IMG/VR virus record: IMGVR_UViG_3300024518_003711
Location: 1-23,470 of that record
DNA from: a virus
Direction: 5' to 3' (one strand)
DNA: 23,470 nucleotides
Shown here: positions 1,737 through 23,324 of the stretch, in pieces
How positions within the stretch are numbered: the stretch's first letter is position 1
How the letters are laid out: the number at the start of each line of letters is the position of its first letter
Position numbers and translations under genes: made by a program
Notes under the pieces: generated by a model
What the model was told of the DNA's origin: nothing
What the model saw: the letters and a program-made list of their open reading frames with translations, nothing else
Database searches by the model: none

Positions 1737-1752
1737 GTGGTAGACTCCGCCC
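1737..1752 (+). promoter_or_regulatory. TGGTAGACT extended -10 element, copy 1 (leaderless-type)
   Basis: GTGGTAGACT followed by CCGCCC and ATG at 1753. TAGACT resembles a sigma-70 -10 element with the TGn extension, and lies 6 bases before the ATG, which would place transcription start at or next to the start codon. No Shine-Dalgarno sequence is present. The same GTGGTAGAC occurs directly before two other genes, at 5773 (plus) and 5613 (minus). The -35 region is poor (CTAACT with 17-base spacing). Confidence 0.55.
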
Positions 1753-1815
1753 ATGCGGGACGGCCTCCTCGTTCGAACACTCGACCTCAGCAGCTTCACC
1801 GAGGGTGCGCGATGA
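1753..1815 (+). CDS. 20-aa leader ORF, translationally coupled
   Basis: ATG to TGA encodes MRDGLLVRTLDLSSFTEGAR. Its TGA overlaps the ATG of the large appendage gene as ATGA, so it may deliver ribosomes to that gene. Its start resembles that of the 5790 gene (MTAPILVRTEALPF) in pattern, xLVRTxxLxxF, and both have the same TGGTAGACT element 6-7 bases upstream. It could be a true leader peptide or the remnant 5' end of a gene related to the 5790 gene. Confidence 0.4.
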   Translation: MRDGLLVRTLDLSSFTEGAR

Positions 1816-3560
1816 CCGAGGCGTCTGGGAGCGAGCCTGGCGGGGGCGGTGGCGGTGGCATAGCGACCCAACTCGGCGACAACTGGCAGATCGTCACAAC
1901 GTGGGCGATGTTCGCGGCGCTGTCGGTCGAGGGCCCAGCCGGCGTATGGACCTACGATGTCCCGATCTTGGTCGATGGGACGATACCTGTGCCAGTAGGC
2001 GAGAGGCTCATCAGCGGCGAAAACGGGTTCTTGACGTCGTTTCAGTGGAGTCAGGCCCAGATCGTTGGAGACGTAGACGGGGACCTTATCTCAGGTCCAG
2101 TCGTCATCAACAACATCGCAGTAAAGAACAAAAACACAGGCGCAGCGGCGTGGGATGTGCACGCGAGCTCGTTTTTCGGCCGGACCCTCATCTTCGGCCA
2201 ATCCACCACATCGGGGATCCGGGGCCTGCGCGTCAGCAATGTCCTTGGGGCCGCCGCTGTCCCCGACTCCGCACACATCTCCGGGCCTGTCCTCATCAGC
2301 TACGAGGTCGGCGGTGTGATCGGAGCGTTTACGAGCAGTAACTTCTCTGCAATCGTCGATACGAGTGGGTCGCTTGGCTTCGTGATCGGGCCAACTACCG
2401 TAATCGCTGCGGGGTTAGTGACAGTCAACCTGGCAGTTGCCATCTCGTCGGCGGACGAATACGCTGTAGCGATCTCGGGTTTGATCAAGCGGATCCCGGG
2501 GGCCGTGCTCCACTTCAGCGGTTGCAGTAACTCCGGGCGTCAAGACCATTTCTTCCGCCAGCTTCCTGGCGACCTCGATGTCGATGAGGTGGGCTTGGTC
2601 GCGGCCGGCAACCCATCTGTGGCGGACTGGGCAGCCTCAATCTCGGTCGTTCGTGTCGATGCTGAGCCAGGCCACGAAGTCAGTGTCTCTCTGCCCGCCG
2701 GCCCTGGGCCGGTGACTATACCGTACGAAAACGGTGTCGATCCGGCTACGATTAGCGTAACAGCTAGCACCAGGTGGCGGCTGGTAAAAAACCCGTCGGA
2801 TACCAGCGATTGGTACATGGAGTACCGCGGGCTGCGCGGGAATGCGCAGATGGACGTATCATGGCGCGCATCATTCGACCGAAATTCTGGGTCTGGCTAT
2901 ATGCAGACCCAGGCCATGGTTCGCCGTGCAGAACCAGTGTACAGCGCCCAACTCGATGACGGTGGCGTCTTCACAGACCAAACCGATGAGGCTCAGAACC
3001 CGACCATAGACGACGTCGAGCTGTTGCCCGCGACCATCACGATCGGCGATGCCACCTACTTCGGCGGCGACCCGGCCGTTGAGATGCCCGCGATCGTCAA
3101 GGTCCTAATCAGCCAGTCTGGCATCGGGGCTTACACAGTCGCATGGGAGACATTCAACGGAGCTACGTGGGTCGCGGCCACCGGAGTCGTTGACGGCACG
3201 CTCGGGTTCAAGGCCGCGACAGGAGAGTACGACGTATACCATGTCCCGCAGGTGGGGGACACGGCCACCACGGTCAACGGTGCGAATGGCTACTACCTGC
3301 GAGCGCGCGTGACCGCTACGGGCATGTCGCAGCAACCGCTAGGGACTCAAGTCTTCACATACACGTCATATGAGGTGATCGGGTCAACTGTTACGCCATC
3401 GGAGAACACGTCAGGCTCGCGGCGTAACGCGAGTGGCACCGGTCCCGATGTGGTGGATAGGTTCGATCGTGTGAACGCTGCGATGCAAAACGGCGTTACG
3501 TCCGCCGCCCAGGCAGTGCGCGTCTTTTCGCTCAACCAGGAATGCAGGGTGCTCCCATGA
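1812..3560 (+). CDS. Virion appendage / tail fibre-like protein (582 aa)
   Basis: The start is the ATG at 1812, which overlaps the leader stop and has GAGGGTG just upstream. A longer in-frame GTG at 1737 lies in the promoter motif and is unlikely. The protein begins with a seven-glycine linker (residues ~10-16), then long Val/Ile/Gly/Thr-rich beta-strand sequence. Around residues 400-520 is a beta-sandwich-like segment with W-E-T-F-N-G-A-T-W, V-D-G-T-L-G-F and G-Y-Y-L-R-A-R-V. That W..W...DGT..f...GyylRaRv pattern is typical of phage baseplate or fibre modules. I infer an external, possibly host-binding, structural protein. Base composition looks less GC-rich than the structural operon, which fits a horizontally exchanged host-range gene. 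Confidence 0.6.
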   Translation: MTEASGSEPGGGGGGGIATQLGDNWQIVTTWAMFAALSVEGPAGVWTYDVPILVDGTIPVPVGERLISGENGFLTSFQWSQAQIVGDVDGDLISGPVVINNIAVKNKNTGAAAWDVHASSFFGRTLIFGQSTTSGIRGLRVSNVLGAAAVPDSAHISGPVLISYEVGGVIGAFTSSNFSAIVDTSGSLGFVIGPTTVIAAGLVTVNLAVAISSADEYAVAISGLIKRIPGAVLHFSGCSNSGRQDHFFRQLPGDLDVDEVGLVAAGNPSVADWAASISVVRVDAEPGHEVSVSLPAGPGPVTIPYENGVDPATISVTASTRWRLVKNPSDTSDWYMEYRGLRGNAQMDVSWRASFDRNSGSGYMQTQAMVRRAEPVYSAQLDDGGVFTDQTDEAQNPTIDDVELLPATITIGDATYFGGDPAVEMPAIVKVLISQSGIGAYTVAWETFNGATWVAATGVVDGTLGFKAATGEYDVYHVPQVGDTATTVNGANGYYLRARVTATGMSQQPLGTQVFTYTSYEVIGSTVTPSENTSGSRRNASGTGPDVVDRFDRVNAAMQNGVTSAAQAVRVFSLNQECRVLP

Positions 3561-3829
3561 AAGCCAAAGATCAGATGCACGCGGCGCTTGCGGCCGAGGG
3601 GTTGTGCTGGACCAGGCCGACAGCCGACCAGAATGGCGCCGAGCAGATGGTTCTCGTGGACGCTAGCCACCCAGCCGCGGATCCAGATGCTCGCAATACG
3701 ATCTCTCTGACGACCTACGCCGTGGTGGTGCACGTGAAGGGTGTCTCATGCGAGGCCCTGGCCGCAGCGCTCCGTGAGGCCAAGGTCGACAAAGACGACG
3801 CCGCGCTGATGGCCATCCTCGAGAGTTGA
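3557..3829 (+). CDS. Small hypothetical protein (90 aa)
   Basis: The ATG at 3557 overlaps the appendage gene's stop as ATGA, which decides the start over an ATG at 3542. It encodes a small soluble alpha/beta protein with a central strand-rich part (ISLTTYAVVVHVKGV) and a C-terminal helix-rich part with acidic and lysine residues (EALAAALREAKVDKDDAALM). I do not recognise the family. Coupling directly downstream of a fibre-like gene suggests a fibre chaperone or assembly partner, but this is context only. Confidence 0.65.
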   Translation: MKAKDQMHAALAAEGLCWTRPTADQNGAEQMVLVDASHPAADPDARNTISLTTYAVVVHVKGVSCEALAAALREAKVDKDDAALMAILES

Positions 3830-3841
3830 GGGGTGTTTTTT
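3813..3841 (+). terminator. Weak intrinsic terminator
   Basis: CCTC (3817-3820) can pair with GAGG (3828-3831) around a 7-base loop, extended by a T-G wobble, and is followed by TTTTTT at 3836-3841. The T-run is good but the stem is short. It overlaps the stop codon of the 90-aa gene, a common place for an operon end. Confidence 0.4.
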
Positions 3842-3872
3842 GTCGGGAGCGCTATCGCACCGGGTCATTGTC

Positions 3873-3881
3873 TGATATACG
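3873..3881 (+). promoter_or_regulatory. Possible TGATATACG extended -10 promoter for the lipoprotein gene
   Basis: TG-A-TATACG lies about 55 bases before the GTG start of the lipoprotein gene, downstream of the weak terminator. It is one of the few AT-rich spots in the intergenic region 3830-3936. No convincing -35 is visible. Unlike the TGGTAGAC genes, this gene has a Shine-Dalgarno sequence, so a transcript with a 5' leader fits. Confidence 0.35.
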
Positions 3882-3936
3882 TGCAGCCACATAGTGCCCA
3901 GCTGCGGTAACAGCATGGGCAGTCAGGAGCATCATT

Positions 3937-4458
3937 GTGACACAAGCTACTCCCAACGACGGCAATACTAGCACGCGCGCGACCCACAGTGCGCTACTCG
4001 CAACACTGACCCTTGTGTGGTCGCTTACGTGTCTGGGCTGCATGCCGCTGGTCGTGGTTGATACGGGGGATTGGGGCGGGGATGGTGACGGCGAGGGCGC
4101 GACCGAGACCGAGCTCGAGACGGCCGAGCCCTCGAGGCCTGACATGGGCGGCTGTGAGCGCCTGGACATCGCGGAGATCGAGTGCAGCGAACAGGGGTGC
4201 TCGGGCCGCTGGGTTGGCACGGAGTCGTGGTCCCCTGCCATGTCGGCGGACATCATAGGCACACTGCCAGAGTACGACCTGGCCACCGTGTGGGCCTGCG
4301 AGCCTGATCCTGATGTTGACGTGTGCGTCATCATCGACGGCGTGGACCACGTCGCCTGCCTGCGCATGTTCGATGGCTGGGGCGTAAGCGTGGCGCCCGT
4401 GTGTTCTGGGCTTGACGGCCTTGACGTCGGGTGCGGCATGGTGGCTGGCACGCACTAG
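3937..4458 (+). CDS. Putative outer-surface lipoprotein (173 aa)
   Basis: GTG start with AGGAG 7-8 bases upstream. Residues ~18-35 form a hydrophobic signal segment ending in LTCLGC, a lipobox with Cys35 as the probable lipidated residue. Then comes a low-complexity linker rich in Gly/Asp/Glu/Thr (GDWGGDGDGEGATETE), and a compact domain with many cysteines (CERLDIAEIECSEQGC, VWACEPDPDVDVCVI, HVACLRM, APVCSGLDGLDVGCG), probably disulphide-bonded. Linkers of this type are common in myxobacterial lipoproteins. Lying between two phage appendage genes with its own regulatory region, it looks like a moron expressed from the prophage, for example to alter the host surface or exclude other phages. 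The function is not established. Its stop interlocks with the opposing fibre gene in CTAG. Confidence 0.65.
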   Translation: MTQATPNDGNTSTRATHSALLATLTLVWSLTCLGCMPLVVVDTGDWGGDGDGEGATETELETAEPSRPDMGGCERLDIAEIECSEQGCSGRWVGTESWSPAMSADIIGTLPEYDLATVWACEPDPDVDVCVIIDGVDHVACLRMFDGWGVSVAPVCSGLDGLDVGCGMVAGTH

Positions 4459-5597
4459 ACCTTGAAATTGCTGGTGACCTTGAGCCCAATGAAAGCGGCG
4501 GCCAGGTTGCCTGAGGCGTTGCCTAGCCGCGCGGTGAATGTGAAGTCTGCCTCTGTTACGATTGCATCGTCAGATGGCCCCCAGTCTAACTCAAACGCCG
4601 CAGTGTACCCCCTGGCGGCTAGATCGGCGTTCACAGTTGTGTTCAGGACTGTGCCGTTACCCACGCCGCTCGTATAGGTGATTTTTGAGATGATAGCGAT
4701 GTCTGCAACCGAGTTCTCGTACCTGAACGTTAGCGTAACCCAGACGCGCTCATTGACCGCAATGCGCCTGGTGACCACGGCTCCGGTGTCGAGTTCACCG
4801 GCACTGACGGCGAACGTCGGGTCATACCCTCGTTTCTGGTCGCTGAACGTGTGAACCCCGAGCGTGTCTCGCACGGACCAAAAGGTGCCATTGTTCCTGA
4901 ACGCGCCCGCCACAGTCGGGAGCGTCGTGCCTGAATCGGTGAACCGCGCCTCCCCAGTCAGGGCCAGATCGCCTAGAACCGTCGCGTCTCCGAGGATGAT
5001 CGCAGCCAGCGCGCATAGGTTCAGGAAACACGGCGCGGGGATCACTGACGCCGGGGTGCTGACGCTGGTGAGCTCCCCGGCGTCAGTGACGAGGATCCAT
5101 ATGTTGACGTAGCCCACGGTCGGAGTGGGCGCGCCGGCCCCGTTGCCGACCTCTTGCAGCTCGTAGTTGCCCTCCTCATCGAGGTTGAGGTAGGTGTCCT
5201 TGTTCGCGGTGAGCGTCTCGGGCGAGCCCGGGGGCCCCTTGATCTCGAGCACGACGCCGCCGTCTCCAGTAGCGTCGACCACGACGCGGGTTGGCGTCAG
5301 CGTGACGTTGAGCGTGGCAGCACCGATGTTCCACGTCCCCTGGCTCACGATGCACGTGGCGAAAAGTCCCTCGTCGGCGAACACCGAGCGGTTGACCAGC
5401 GAGCGGATCCAGCGACCGTACCGGCTGTACGGGTAGTTTAGGGAGTTGGCGTTGAGGGCAGTTGCGGGGTCGAACCCGTCATCCTCCATTGGGGAGGGAA
5501 CGGTGAAGGGCCCGCCGTCCTCACCCCACGTCGCTACGTTCTGCGAGCCGTCGCCGTCGACGGGGATGTCTGTGGGTGCTGTGATTTCGAATCCCAT
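4455..5597 (-). CDS. Tail fibre / appendage-like protein (380 aa)
   Basis: The ATG at 5597 follows a TGGTAGACA element with no Shine-Dalgarno sequence. N-terminal ~80 residues: acidic, with a conserved-looking NYPYSRYGRWIRSL stretch. Residues ~85-180 are beta-rich with a TANKDTYLNLDEEGNYELQEV strip and YVNIWILVTDAGELTSV, patterns common in phage fibre or appendage proteins. Residues ~197-250 contain ILGDATVLGDLALTGEARF, a shaft-like repeat, then NNGTFWSVRD. The last ~120 residues are a beta-rich domain (VWVTLTFRYEN, FTFTARLGN) that could be a receptor-binding tip. It is transcribed in the same direction as the structural operon but separated from it by an opposing gene and a terminator, so it is probably expressed independently. 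Confidence 0.6.
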   Translation of the reverse strand: MGFEITAPTDIPVDGDGSQNVATWGEDGGPFTVPSPMEDDGFDPATALNANSLNYPYSRYGRWIRSLVNRSVFADEGLFATCIVSQGTWNIGAATLNVTLTPTRVVVDATGDGGVVLEIKGPPGSPETLTANKDTYLNLDEEGNYELQEVGNGAGAPTPTVGYVNIWILVTDAGELTSVSTPASVIPAPCFLNLCALAAIILGDATVLGDLALTGEARFTDSGTTLPTVAGAFRNNGTFWSVRDTLGVHTFSDQKRGYDPTFAVSAGELDTGAVVTRRIAVNERVWVTLTFRYENSVADIAIISKITYTSGVGNGTVLNTTVNADLAARGYTAAFELDWGPSDDAIVTEADFTFTARLGNASGNLAAAFIGLKVTSNFKV

Positions 5598-5613
5598 GCA
5601 CCGTGTCTACCAC
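5598..5613 (-). promoter_or_regulatory. TGGTAGACA extended -10 element, copy 3 (minus strand)
   Basis: Read on the minus strand: GTGGTAGACA, then CGGTGC, then ATG at 5597. The six-base gap to the start codon and the absence of a Shine-Dalgarno sequence match the plus-strand copies at 1737 and 5773. This copy lies just downstream of the minus-strand terminator at 5622-5658, so it would restart transcription for the fibre gene. Confidence 0.55.
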
Positions 5614-5621
5614 GCGCGCGC

Positions 5622-5658
5622 AAAAAAGGGACCCCGGGTCATGGGACACCCAGGGCCC
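5622..5658 (-). terminator. Rho-independent terminator of the structural operon
   Basis: On the minus strand: GGGCCC-T-GGGT, loop GTCCCATG, ACCC-G-GGG-T-CCC, then TTTTTT. The stem has ten Watson-Crick pairs plus a G-T wobble, with one bulged T. The wobble becomes a C-A mismatch on the plus strand, and the T-run is correct only for minus-strand transcription, so the direction is clear. It is the first such signal after the structural operon, but lies beyond the opposing 5790-6215 gene. Confidence 0.75.
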
Positions 5659-5668
5659 CTAGCGACGC

Positions 5669-5684
5669 CGACCGATCACGGTCG
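5669..5684. repeat. Inverted repeat CGACCG-ATCA-CGGTCG
   Basis: A perfect six-base inverted repeat with a four-base ATCA centre, in the middle of the divergent intergenic region between the 5597 and 5790 genes. It could be a regulator-binding site shared by the two promoters, or a small hairpin read on the plus strand ahead of TTTCC. No recogniser is identifiable. Confidence 0.35.
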
Positions 5685-5754
5685 TTTCCTCAGGCTCTTA
5701 CGAAAGCCGCGCCGCGTGGCTACCGGCTCGGACCGTAGCACACCCACCCGAGCG

Positions 5755-5789
5755 CTGACGCCGCCGCCCAGCGTGGTAGACTCCCGCCC
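5755..5789 (+). promoter_or_regulatory. TGGTAGACT extended -10 element, copy 2, with a -35-like CTGACG
   Basis: CTGACG (5755-5760) is separated by 16 bases from TAGACT (5777-5782), which carries the TGG extension. Seven bases (CCCGCCC) then separate it from the ATG at 5790, and no Shine-Dalgarno sequence is present. This is the best-formed of the three GTGGTAGAC promoters and drives the 141-aa gene against the direction of the structural operon. Confidence 0.6.
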
Positions 5790-6215
5790 ATGACCGCCCC
5801 GATCCTCGTGCGCACCGAAGCCCTACCCTTTGCCGGGGACACGTGGGCAGCCGACGGGAGCCAGGAGGCGCCGACCGCTGGCCTCGAGCTGCTGTGCACC
5901 GCCTCGCCCGTGCTCTGGAAGATCACCGGGTACACAGGCACCGGCCCAACGGCGGAGCCGGTCACGGACGCGCTCACGACCATCGACGCGCGCCTGGTCA
6001 TGCGAGACCCGAACCCCGATGCAGTGCTCGAGACCGCGACCACAACCAGGCTGACCGACGGAGGCGCGCCCGAGCGGCCCCTCGGAACCGGCCTGCGAGA
6101 CCGCGACATCGCTCCGGGGCAGCGCTTCTTTTGCGGGCTGGTCTCGGTCACCCACACGGGGCCAGCGTCCGCGGTGCGGATCGTGATCACCAGCGGCGCG
6201 AAGCTGGTCGTCTAG
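5790..6215 (+). CDS. Small beta-rich hypothetical protein (141 aa)
   Basis: The ATG at 5790 follows a TGGTAGACT element and begins MTAPILVRTEALPFAGDTW. The protein is soluble and rich in Thr, Val, Ala and Pro, with short predicted strands (LELLCTASPVLWKITGYTG; DARLVMRD; RFFCGLVSVTH; AVRIVITSGAKLVV) that suggest a single beta-sandwich. I do not recognise the family. Lying between the baseplate end of the structural operon and a fibre gene, it could be a small appendage or decoration protein. It is transcribed convergently with the structural operon, and its TAG stop is interlocked with the gpI-like gene's TAG in CTAG. Confidence 0.6.
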   Translation: MTAPILVRTEALPFAGDTWAADGSQEAPTAGLELLCTASPVLWKITGYTGTGPTAEPVTDALTTIDARLVMRDPNPDAVLETATTTRLTDGGAPERPLGTGLRDRDIAPGQRFFCGLVSVTHTGPASAVRIVITSGAKLVV

Positions 6216-7996: not shown

Positions 7997-8358
7997 AACG
8001 TCACCGCGATCGGGTCATCGTAGATCGTCCGAGCCTCGACCTTGATCGAGAGCCTCGGCCCTGGCTCGACATCGAAATCCACGGATACATCTGGCTCACC
8101 TGTGATCTCCGCGACGCCCTCGACATCGAGCACAGCCTCTCGCACCATCGCCGACCGCTCAGCGTCACTCGTGTCCGGCTGCATGAGCCGCCTATGGTCG
8201 AGGCCGTCCTTGGTGTCGAGGGCGTTGCCGCCGAGCGGCGTAGCAAGCTTCATCCACACGCGCACCCGCACGGCCTCGGACCCGGTCACGTACACCAACG
8301 GGTGCACGAGCGCGGGCGGATCCGCGTCCGTGTCGATGTCCCACACTGCGCCGGACAT
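7993..8358 (-). CDS. Baseplate wedge protein, gpW/gp25-like, DUF2634 type (121 aa)
   Basis: Starts at ATG 8358, sharing one base with the hub gene's stop (TGATG). A longer open frame continues upstream but is a shadow of the hub gene. After a short acidic N-terminus (WDIDTDADPP) the protein carries ALDTKDGLDHRRLM, matching the conserved dG.dy....  element of the gp25/DUF2634 lysozyme-like wedge fold, then a helix (SAMVREAVLDVEGV) and strands (VSVDFDV, RLSIKVEAR). It attaches the gpJ wedge to the hub and nucleates the sheath in this tail type. Confidence 0.8.
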   Translation of the reverse strand: MSGAVWDIDTDADPPALVHPLVYVTGSEAVRVRVWMKLATPLGGNALDTKDGLDHRRLMQPDTSDAERSAMVREAVLDVEGVAEITGEPDVSVDFDVEPGPRLSIKVEARTIYDDPIAVTL

Positions 8359-9398
8359 CAGAACACCTCCGGGATCGTCTGGAGGGCGTCGAGCTTGAGC
8401 CGCGAGGACCCTCCCCCATACGTGTCGAGTTCGAGGTCTGCCTGGTCGATCCGGTACTGTGTGCCCACGTCCACCCCTTGAATCTCGACTTGCCTGCCCG
8501 GTCGAGCCAGCGGGTTCGCCCATGTGACCGCCGCCATCTCCTGGGCTTGCAGCCGCTCCACTGGCCCCTGGAGGGTTCCGTCCGCGTCGGACAACATGAG
8601 CACCGGGAAGCCTGGGATCACGCTGCTCGAGTCGAGCAAGAGGAACTCTCCGCTCTGGATCGACCAGCGCAGGTCGACCGCGGACAGGAACGACCGGAGA
8701 TGATCGACGGCCGGGCCGCTGCACGTGTAGCTCCCAGAGATGAGCAAATCCGCCGCCGTCCCACCGCCTGCGATCGTCGACGTCGCCAGCGTGTTCTCCA
8801 GCCGAGCTCGGTCCACGGTCAGCCCGATCGCGTTGATCAGGTCCACGACGATGTCCACGACGTTCGTCCCCGCGCTGTATGACTTGCTGCGAAAGCTCAC
8901 GAGCCCGCCCCCGCTCACCTGCACGACCGACGCCGCGCCAAGCGTGTGGCCGCCGTCCTCGGCGCGGATCGTCGTGACCATGTCGAGGCCGTCCGGCTTG
9001 GTCGTGATGCTGTTCGAGCTGCCCACGAAACCCAGGGACAGGGGCGGGATGATCGCCGCTGCGCCGGGCACGTGGTAGCCCCAGTCGAGCTCGACCGAGG
9101 CCAGGCCGGCGTTGTCTGTCGTGATCTCGATCGGCGCAGCACTGGCCCCAGCCAGGAGTAACTGTGCCCGCTCCTTCGGCGTCCAGTCGATCCGCTTGCG
9201 CACTGTGCCCGAGATCAGATCCGCTGTCTCCGGCGCGAGGTTGAATAGCCGGATCTCGATCGTGTTCGGCGTGGGCTCGAGGGTCCACGTGCCACTGGCT
9301 TGAATCCTGATCCGCTCGGCCGTGATTGGGTTGCCAGAGTCAAACGTGCCGGTGCCGTTGGTCACGCGGCACCGTGCGAACAGGCGCGGCTGGGTCAC
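8358..9398 (-). CDS. Baseplate hub protein, gp27/gpD-like (346 aa)
   Basis: GTG start at 9398 in a GTGA overlap with the previous stop. The first ~110 residues are beta-rich and include TIEIRLFNLAPETADLI, the pattern of phage hub proteins in which each monomer contributes tube-like domains (x-I-x-I-x-N-L). Residues ~165-250 contain RSKSYSAGTNVVDIVVDLINAIGL and AVDHLRSFLSAVDLRWSIQSGEFLLLD, as in hub domain III. The trimeric hub joins the spike to the tail tube. Internal similarity and gene order support it; no catalytic domain is visible. Confidence 0.8.
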   Translation of the reverse strand: MTQPRLFARCRVTNGTGTFDSGNPITAERIRIQASGTWTLEPTPNTIEIRLFNLAPETADLISGTVRKRIDWTPKERAQLLLAGASAAPIEITTDNAGLASVELDWGYHVPGAAAIIPPLSLGFVGSSNSITTKPDGLDMVTTIRAEDGGHTLGAASVVQVSGGGLVSFRSKSYSAGTNVVDIVVDLINAIGLTVDRARLENTLATSTIAGGGTAADLLISGSYTCSGPAVDHLRSFLSAVDLRWSIQSGEFLLLDSSSVIPGFPVLMLSDADGTLQGPVERLQAQEMAAVTWANPLARPGRQVEIQGVDVGTQYRIDQADLELDTYGGGSSRLKLDALQTIPEVF

Positions 9399-23002: not shown

Positions 23003-23112
23003 GCCGCACCCCTGCGAGGGAGACCCAGGACGACTCGCTCGAGCTCCACCCGATCAGCTGCGCCGAGGCTCGATGCGTCACCCTCGAGCACCAACCGCAG
23101 CCGCGCGCTCAT
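22999..23112 (-). CDS. Very small coupled ORF (37 aa)
   Basis: ATG at 23112 forms ATGA with the stop of the zinc-ribbon ORF; TGA at 23001-22999 forms GTGA with the protease start. GAGG lies five bases before the ATG. It encodes an amphipathic helical peptide (MSARLRLVLEGDASSLGAAD ... VLGLPRRGAA). An upstream in-frame ATG at 23190 is possible but would overlap the zinc-ribbon ORF. The double overlap is the main evidence for a real gene. No function is apparent. Confidence 0.55.
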   Translation of the reverse strand: MSARLRLVLEGDASSLGAADRVELERVVLGLPRRGAA

Positions 23113-23273
23113 CCTTGCCTCGATTCGGTCCACCGCTGGTACCAGCATGGATCCGTGGTCGGGCAGGTCGGGCGTCCGCATTCTGCGCATTTCGGCACCG
23201 TGGTGGCTTGCTTCACCGCTGGCCCCCGACGCTGCTCGCGGGTGCTCGTGTGCGGTGGAACGGGGCTAGGCAT
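23109..23273 (-). CDS. Small putative zinc-binding protein at the operon start (54 aa)
   Basis: Start chosen at ATG 23273; the ATG at 23294 (61 aa) lies upstream of a TAGCGT -10-like element and is less likely. The N-terminal half is disordered and basic; residues 29-43 are CAECGRPTCPTTDPC, with Cys29, 32, 37 and 43 as a likely zinc knuckle. It overlaps the next ORF as ATGA. It is unlike the Mu Com zinc finger in spacing. It may be a regulator or a virion assembly factor; this is unresolved. There is no Shine-Dalgarno sequence, consistent with a near-leaderless first gene. Confidence 0.5.
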   Translation of the reverse strand: MPSPVPPHTSTREQRRGPAVKQATTVPKCAECGRPTCPTTDPCWYQRWTESRQG

Positions 23274-23283
23274 GAAACACGGC

Positions 23284-23292
23284 GACGCTAGC
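23284..23292 (-). promoter_or_regulatory. Possible operon promoter, TGCTAGCGT extended -10
   Basis: On the minus strand TG-C-TAGCGT lies 11 bases before the ATG at 23273, in the short space between the divergent genes. Its form (TGn-TAGxxT) echoes TGGTAGACT elsewhere in the window. It would drive the whole structural operon. No -35 is recognised; a phage activator may be required. Confidence 0.35.
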
Positions 23293-23324
23293 ATAGGCGC
23301 TCTTTGCGTGCAACTATGCGTGGC

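Follow-up and report, generated by a model that had tools for sequence, protein, structure and literature searches.

An extended −10 motif close to start codons points to leaderless gene starts in an uncultured contractile-tail phage

Leaderless starts in bacteria and phages

A TAnnnT element approximately 12 nt ahead of the start codon marks leaderless genes in bacteria; in the delta-proteobacteria, 8 of 33 genomes contained such genes, at an average of 15.8% of genes (PMC3160421). According to GeneMarkS-2 predictions, 21.6% of bacterial species use leaderless transcription (PMC9581028). Leaderless initiation was found in lambda, and the cI transcript is the classic leaderless phage mRNA, as cited in PMC3160421 and PMC4965119. 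E. coli contains mRNAs with a 5′-terminal upstream AUG (uAUG) ahead of Shine-Dalgarno (SD)-led genes (PMC4965119).

Here we describe a 23,470-base IMG/VR fragment (66% GC; hereafter the window) from a contractile-tail phage, in which a baseplate wedge, a baseplate hub, a major head protein and a head maturation protease were recognised. The leaderless promoter class is already known, and the window is a well-supported further case of it. As in the TA-led leaderless genes (PMC3160421), TAnnnT lies at 12–13 nt, an SD is absent, the sites stand at unit heads and the genome is high in GC; in contrast to them, the genes belong to a phage, the consensus is the fuller TGGTAGAC(T/A), and the transcription start is predicted. 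Like that of lambda cI, the phage mRNA would carry its start codon at the 5′ end, whereas several units share the arrangement here and their genes look structural or accessory, not like a repressor. The E. coli 5′-uAUG mRNAs (PMC4965119) resemble the site at 1753, where a uAUG and a short upstream ORF (uORF) precede an SD-led gene, but this predicted uORF terminates right at the next start through an ATGA overlap.

The initial annotation of this DNA considered leaderless starts unusual for a phage of a Gram-negative host. Lambda, the 8 of 33 delta-proteobacterial genomes (PMC3160421) and an enrichment of the arrangement in Myxococcota, the likeliest host group, contradict that view. As predicted here, leaderless expression would also occur in an uncultured phage with a contractile tail, whose host is probably a member of the Myxococcota. 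The phage relatives found were a near-identical contig and L006; scans of viral contigs with 5790–6215 and 1812–3560 gave no further relatives. L006 makes this known mode of gene starting unusually clear, with promoter and start codon kept and a different gene behind them.

Motif copies and start sites in the window

The sequence GTGGTAGAC occurs exactly three times in the window, at 1737–1745 (+), 5773–5781 (+) and 5613–5605 (−), and is followed by T, T and A, respectively. This exact count agrees with the initial annotation, which had seen three copies and none elsewhere, and its concern that the motif might be equally common inside genes did not materialise (0 of the 3 copies lie within a predicted gene of the window). 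The spacing between the end of TAGAC(T/A) and the ATG, given there as 6 or 7 bases, was measured as 6 nt (1753), 7 nt (5790) and 6 nt (5597, −), and the first T of TAnnnT lies 12, 13 and 12 nt from these ATGs.

TGGTAGAC was observed three times against 0.31 expected, and 0 of 100 shuffles contained three or more copies. Combined with an ATG 6–9 nt downstream of the 8-mer, it was again observed three times, whereas in 400 dinucleotide shuffles this combination averaged 0.0075 and never exceeded 1. For the looser pattern of TGnTAnnnW with an ATG, six cases were found against a shuffle mean of 0.83, and no shuffle exceeded 4. Sharing of an 8-mer is not significant alone, with 330 of 3000 random start-codon sets (~11%) sharing one in at least three members; what is remarkable is the motif combined with its position.

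Among examined starts, which were hand-picked from the ORF list (a few listed coordinates off any start codon were given no weight), five have an extended −10 no more than 30 nt away: 822, 1753, 5790, 5597 and 23273. SD pairing at these five is weak or absent, with ΔG values of 0 to −3.8 kcal/mol (−3.8 at 1753, −2.9 at 5790 and −3.0 at 5597). None of the other examined starts has an extended −10, and SD pairing at many of them reaches −5 to −11. This census and the comparison with L006 support the earlier proposal that SD sites serve genes inside operons and the motif the heads of transcription units. If TAGACA at 5609 is counted, TGn directly precedes TAnnnT at each of the five sites. A sigma-70 consensus scan of the window called no promoter and missed all motif sites, because the −10 is degenerate and the −35s are weak. 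Rfam and tRNA scans of the window gave no match.

Divergent promoters and comparison with L006

Two of the copies face away from each other in a region with the following features.

5755–5760, + strand: −35-like CTGACG, 16 bp before TAGACT; conserved in L006
5774–5782, + strand: extended −10 TGGTAGACT; kept in L006 with a gap of 7 and the ATG
5790–6215, + strand: 141-aa gene with a predicted leaderless start; 89% amino acid identity to L006; no earlier in-frame start
5627–5660, − strand: intrinsic terminator with a 13-bp stem and a T6 run, immediately ahead of the next promoter; stem kept in L006
5604–5612, − strand: extended −10 TGGTAGACA; conserved in L006
4455–5597, − strand: fibre-like gene of 380 aa with a predicted leaderless start; second in its unit and SD-led in L006

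L006 shows 87% DNA identity to the window over 4.6 kb, spans the divergent region and keeps both motifs. On the + side, TGGTAGACT, the 7-nt gap, the ATG and CTGACG at 16 bp are all retained, and five positions within the spacer have all changed. No −35 element is evident at the 5612 (−) site. The terminator stem on this side is retained with different bases (GGGGCCCTGGGT/ACCCGGGGTCCC in the window and GGGAGCGCCTGGGT/ACTCGGGCGCTCCC in L006), with a T run after both.

Directly after the terminator, the window and L006 both continue with GCGTGGTAGACACGG and then ATGGGA, and their homology breaks a few bases past this start codon. In L006, the conserved ATG opens a different 79-aa gene (8318–8564) that the window lacks. 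Next in the L006 unit, in second place, comes the homologue of the window's 5597 gene (45% identity, E 3e-29), led by TAGGAGaacatcATG; this strong SD is missing in the window, where the gene sits first. This constitutes a natural comparison of the same gene without an SD when first after the promoter and with one when second, and therefore the ATG appears to belong to the promoter and not to the gene. Because the homology ends just past the start codon and different genes follow, the promoter–ATG junction might even act as an expression slot for modular gene exchange, a reading that we regard as rather doubtful. If the start codon were part of the promoter unit and neither leader nor SD were needed, any frame joined at the ATG would be expressed.

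A further conserved sequence, TGCTACGGT, lies at 5740–5732 (−), 128 nt upstream of the 5597 start. Its flanks are perfectly conserved in L006, and it has no ATG. The terminator at 5660–5627 comes after it, and L006 lacks approximately 36 nt in between. It is possibly the promoter of an RNA of ~100 nt or a dyad operator between the divergent promoters.

The 1737 site

The third copy stands ahead of a two-frame arrangement.

1649–1680, + strand: perfect 13-bp GC-rich hairpin upstream of the promoter, z −7.2, no T run
1738–1746, + strand: extended −10 TGGTAGACT, 6 nt to the ATG; predicted transcription start ~1753
1753–1815, + strand: 20-aa uORF, predicted 5′-terminal, MRDGLLVRTLDLSSFTEGAR*, whose TGA overlaps the next ATG (ATGA)
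1801–1804, + strand: GAGG, the Shine-Dalgarno site for the gene at 1812, 7 nt upstream, ΔG −6.4
1812–3560, + strand: gene of 582 aa without a family match; its fibre-like character was judged by eye only

The initial annotation had read the ATG behind this copy as a leaderless start without an SD. The copy fronts a predicted 5′-terminal uAUG and the 20-aa uORF, which has no family match, before the SD-led gene. Because the ATG at 1753 opens just this short ORF, the reported lack of an SD holds for the uORF, as it does for 5790 and 5597, and fails for the 582-aa gene, whose GAGG is well placed. The layout of 1753 and 1812 fits an AUG at the predicted 5′ end followed by an SD-led gene. No −35 element is evident at the 1738 site. 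The hairpin at 1649–1680, between two + strand units, probably marks a unit boundary, and it is possibly a bidirectional terminator.

Related elements at 804 and 23293

Two similar sites were observed in the window.

804–812, + strand: related extended −10 TGGTAACCT, 9 nt before the ATG at 822
822–1049, + strand: 75-aa ORF, SD-less, predicted near-leaderless
23285–23293, − strand: related extended −10 TGCTAGCGT, 11 nt before the ATG at 23273
23109–23273, − strand: 54-aa ORF without an SD, ahead of a structural gene cluster

Both elements are present before SD-less ORFs, as had been noted. They do not extend to strictly leaderless starts, because the gaps of 9 (TGGTAACCT) and 11 (TGCTAGCGT) imply leaders of approximately 3–5 nt, near-leaderless at best.

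The arrangement in other genomes

Searching the collection for the motif followed by an ATG gave at least 118 stretches; among the matches listed, 107 of 118 ATGs open an ORF of at least 60 codons, compared with 55 for random ATGs. In four Kiritimatiellae-type metagenome-assembled genomes (MAGs), TGGTAGACT-N5-8-ATG occurs 30–39 times per ~3.3-Mb genome against 0–1 for the reversed motif, often with TTGC-like −35s. The more degenerate TGnTAnnnT-N6-8-ATG reached 228 against 18 reversed (13-fold) in one Kiritimatiellae-type genome. Gut MAGs of this type (G009–G012; L018, L036, L030 and L045) very often carry TGGTAGACT or TAGAAT 7–8 nt before an ATG. A text search of the literature for Kiritimatiellae together with leaderless returned no paper describing this start usage. 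In these gut bacteria, TGGTAGACT-ATG is a common start signal worth modelling in gene finders.

In most Myxococcota genomes tested, TGnTAnnnT-N6-8-ATG is enriched approximately 2–11-fold over the reversed control (276/69, 260/73, 163/15, 198/70, 162/37 and 188/41), and two genomes show little or no enrichment (67/83 and 153/123). Thioalkalivibrio and Trichlorobacter show 1.5–1.9-fold enrichment. In other phyla, the counts stay close to those of the control (25/25, 125/134, 45/38, 28/22 and 23/32); the genomes without clear enrichment come from an alphaproteobacterium, an acidobacterium, a planctomycete, an actinobacterium and a rhodospirillale. Exact copies of TGGTAGACT are rare in Myxococcota, mostly 0–5 per genome, and therefore the exact phage consensus differs from that of the favoured host group.

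In unselected sequence of the Polyangia genome G529, an ORF ATG follows 17 of the 45 TGnTAnnnT sites at a gap of 6–10, against a background of 0.33 per offset. ATG gap peaks at 6–8 nt recur in other genomes; the gap-peak figures for G009 are biased, as the sampled contigs were picked for holding matches, and the whole-genome counts are unbiased. An unrelated virus, L128, carries TTGACA-N17-TAGACT-N6-ATG.

Proposed mechanism and alternative explanations

Taken with its spacing, the motif is very probably a sigma-70-type extended −10 (TGnTAnnnT) placed for leaderless or nearly leaderless mRNAs. The host housekeeping sigma-70-type RNA polymerase would read it, here as TGGTAGAC(T/A), and because the element lies very close to the ATG, transcription is predicted to start on or within 1–2 bases of its A. 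The mRNAs at 5790 (+) and 5597 (−) would consequently be leaderless, and 70S ribosomes or initiator-tRNA-loaded subunits may bind the 5′-terminal AUG without an SD, which would then not be needed. At 1753, the same promoter type would yield a 5′-terminal uAUG and the 20-aa uORF, which by its ATGA overlap probably feeds ribosomes to the SD-led 582-aa gene. Genes deeper in the units would rely on SD sites or translational coupling. The original idea of an extended −10 that starts transcription at the ATG is thus supported by L006 and the other genomes, but does not cover the main gene behind the 1737 copy or the gaps at 804 and 23293.

Alternatively, a phage regulator could coordinate the three units by binding the motif as an operator or activator box that overlaps ordinary promoters located elsewhere. 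The 8–9 identical bases at three sites are tighter than a degenerate TAnnnT requires, GTGGCAGACT is found 34 bp ahead of the 1737 copy, and the divergent region contains further conserved blocks. However, the site is not palindromic, its distance to the ATG is fixed, the same sequence and distance occur in unrelated bacteria and viruses, and L128 has TTGACA at 17 bp; we consider such a box unlikely.

A translation-level element would also account for SD-less starts with the motif near the ATG. It would serve ribosome binding or start context independently of an SD, inside a leader whose transcription begins further upstream, and the conserved TGCTACGGT 128 nt upstream of 5597 (−) could be the upstream promoter. 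The conserved-stem terminator between TGCTACGGT and the 5597 ATG argues against this, and the TG one base before TAnnnT and the −35 at 16–17 bp fit RNA polymerase and not a ribosome, which makes this explanation quite improbable. Least probable of all are ordinary leadered promoters with incidental closeness to the ATG, or copies from local duplication of one promoter: the two + copies are 83% alike over 23 nt, so that duplication is possible, and the main gene of the 1738 site is leadered (59 nt) and SD-led, but 5790 and 5597 have neither an alternative in-frame start nor an SD, the gap is kept in L006, and the 6–8 nt gap peaks recur elsewhere.

Host

We favour Myxococcota as the host; this assignment is somewhat better than even and not proven. 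A search with the capsid protein among genome contigs gave no match, and neither did the capsid (57 genomes) or the protease (240 genomes) within the Kiritimatiellae-type class. Tetranucleotide comparison was rejected as a host test, as the values for Kiritimatiellae (0.59) and Sorangium (0.58) are not separable. The ORF at 3937–4458 (+) is predicted to be lipoprotein-like with a GDGDGEGATETE linker and recalls myxobacterial lipoproteins; no homologue was found in 331 Myxococcota genomes. G529 contains a syntenic distant relative, with protease, capsid and sheath ordered as in the window. The Polyangia contig L181, where these three genes follow each other as they do in the window, represents a distant prophage relative.
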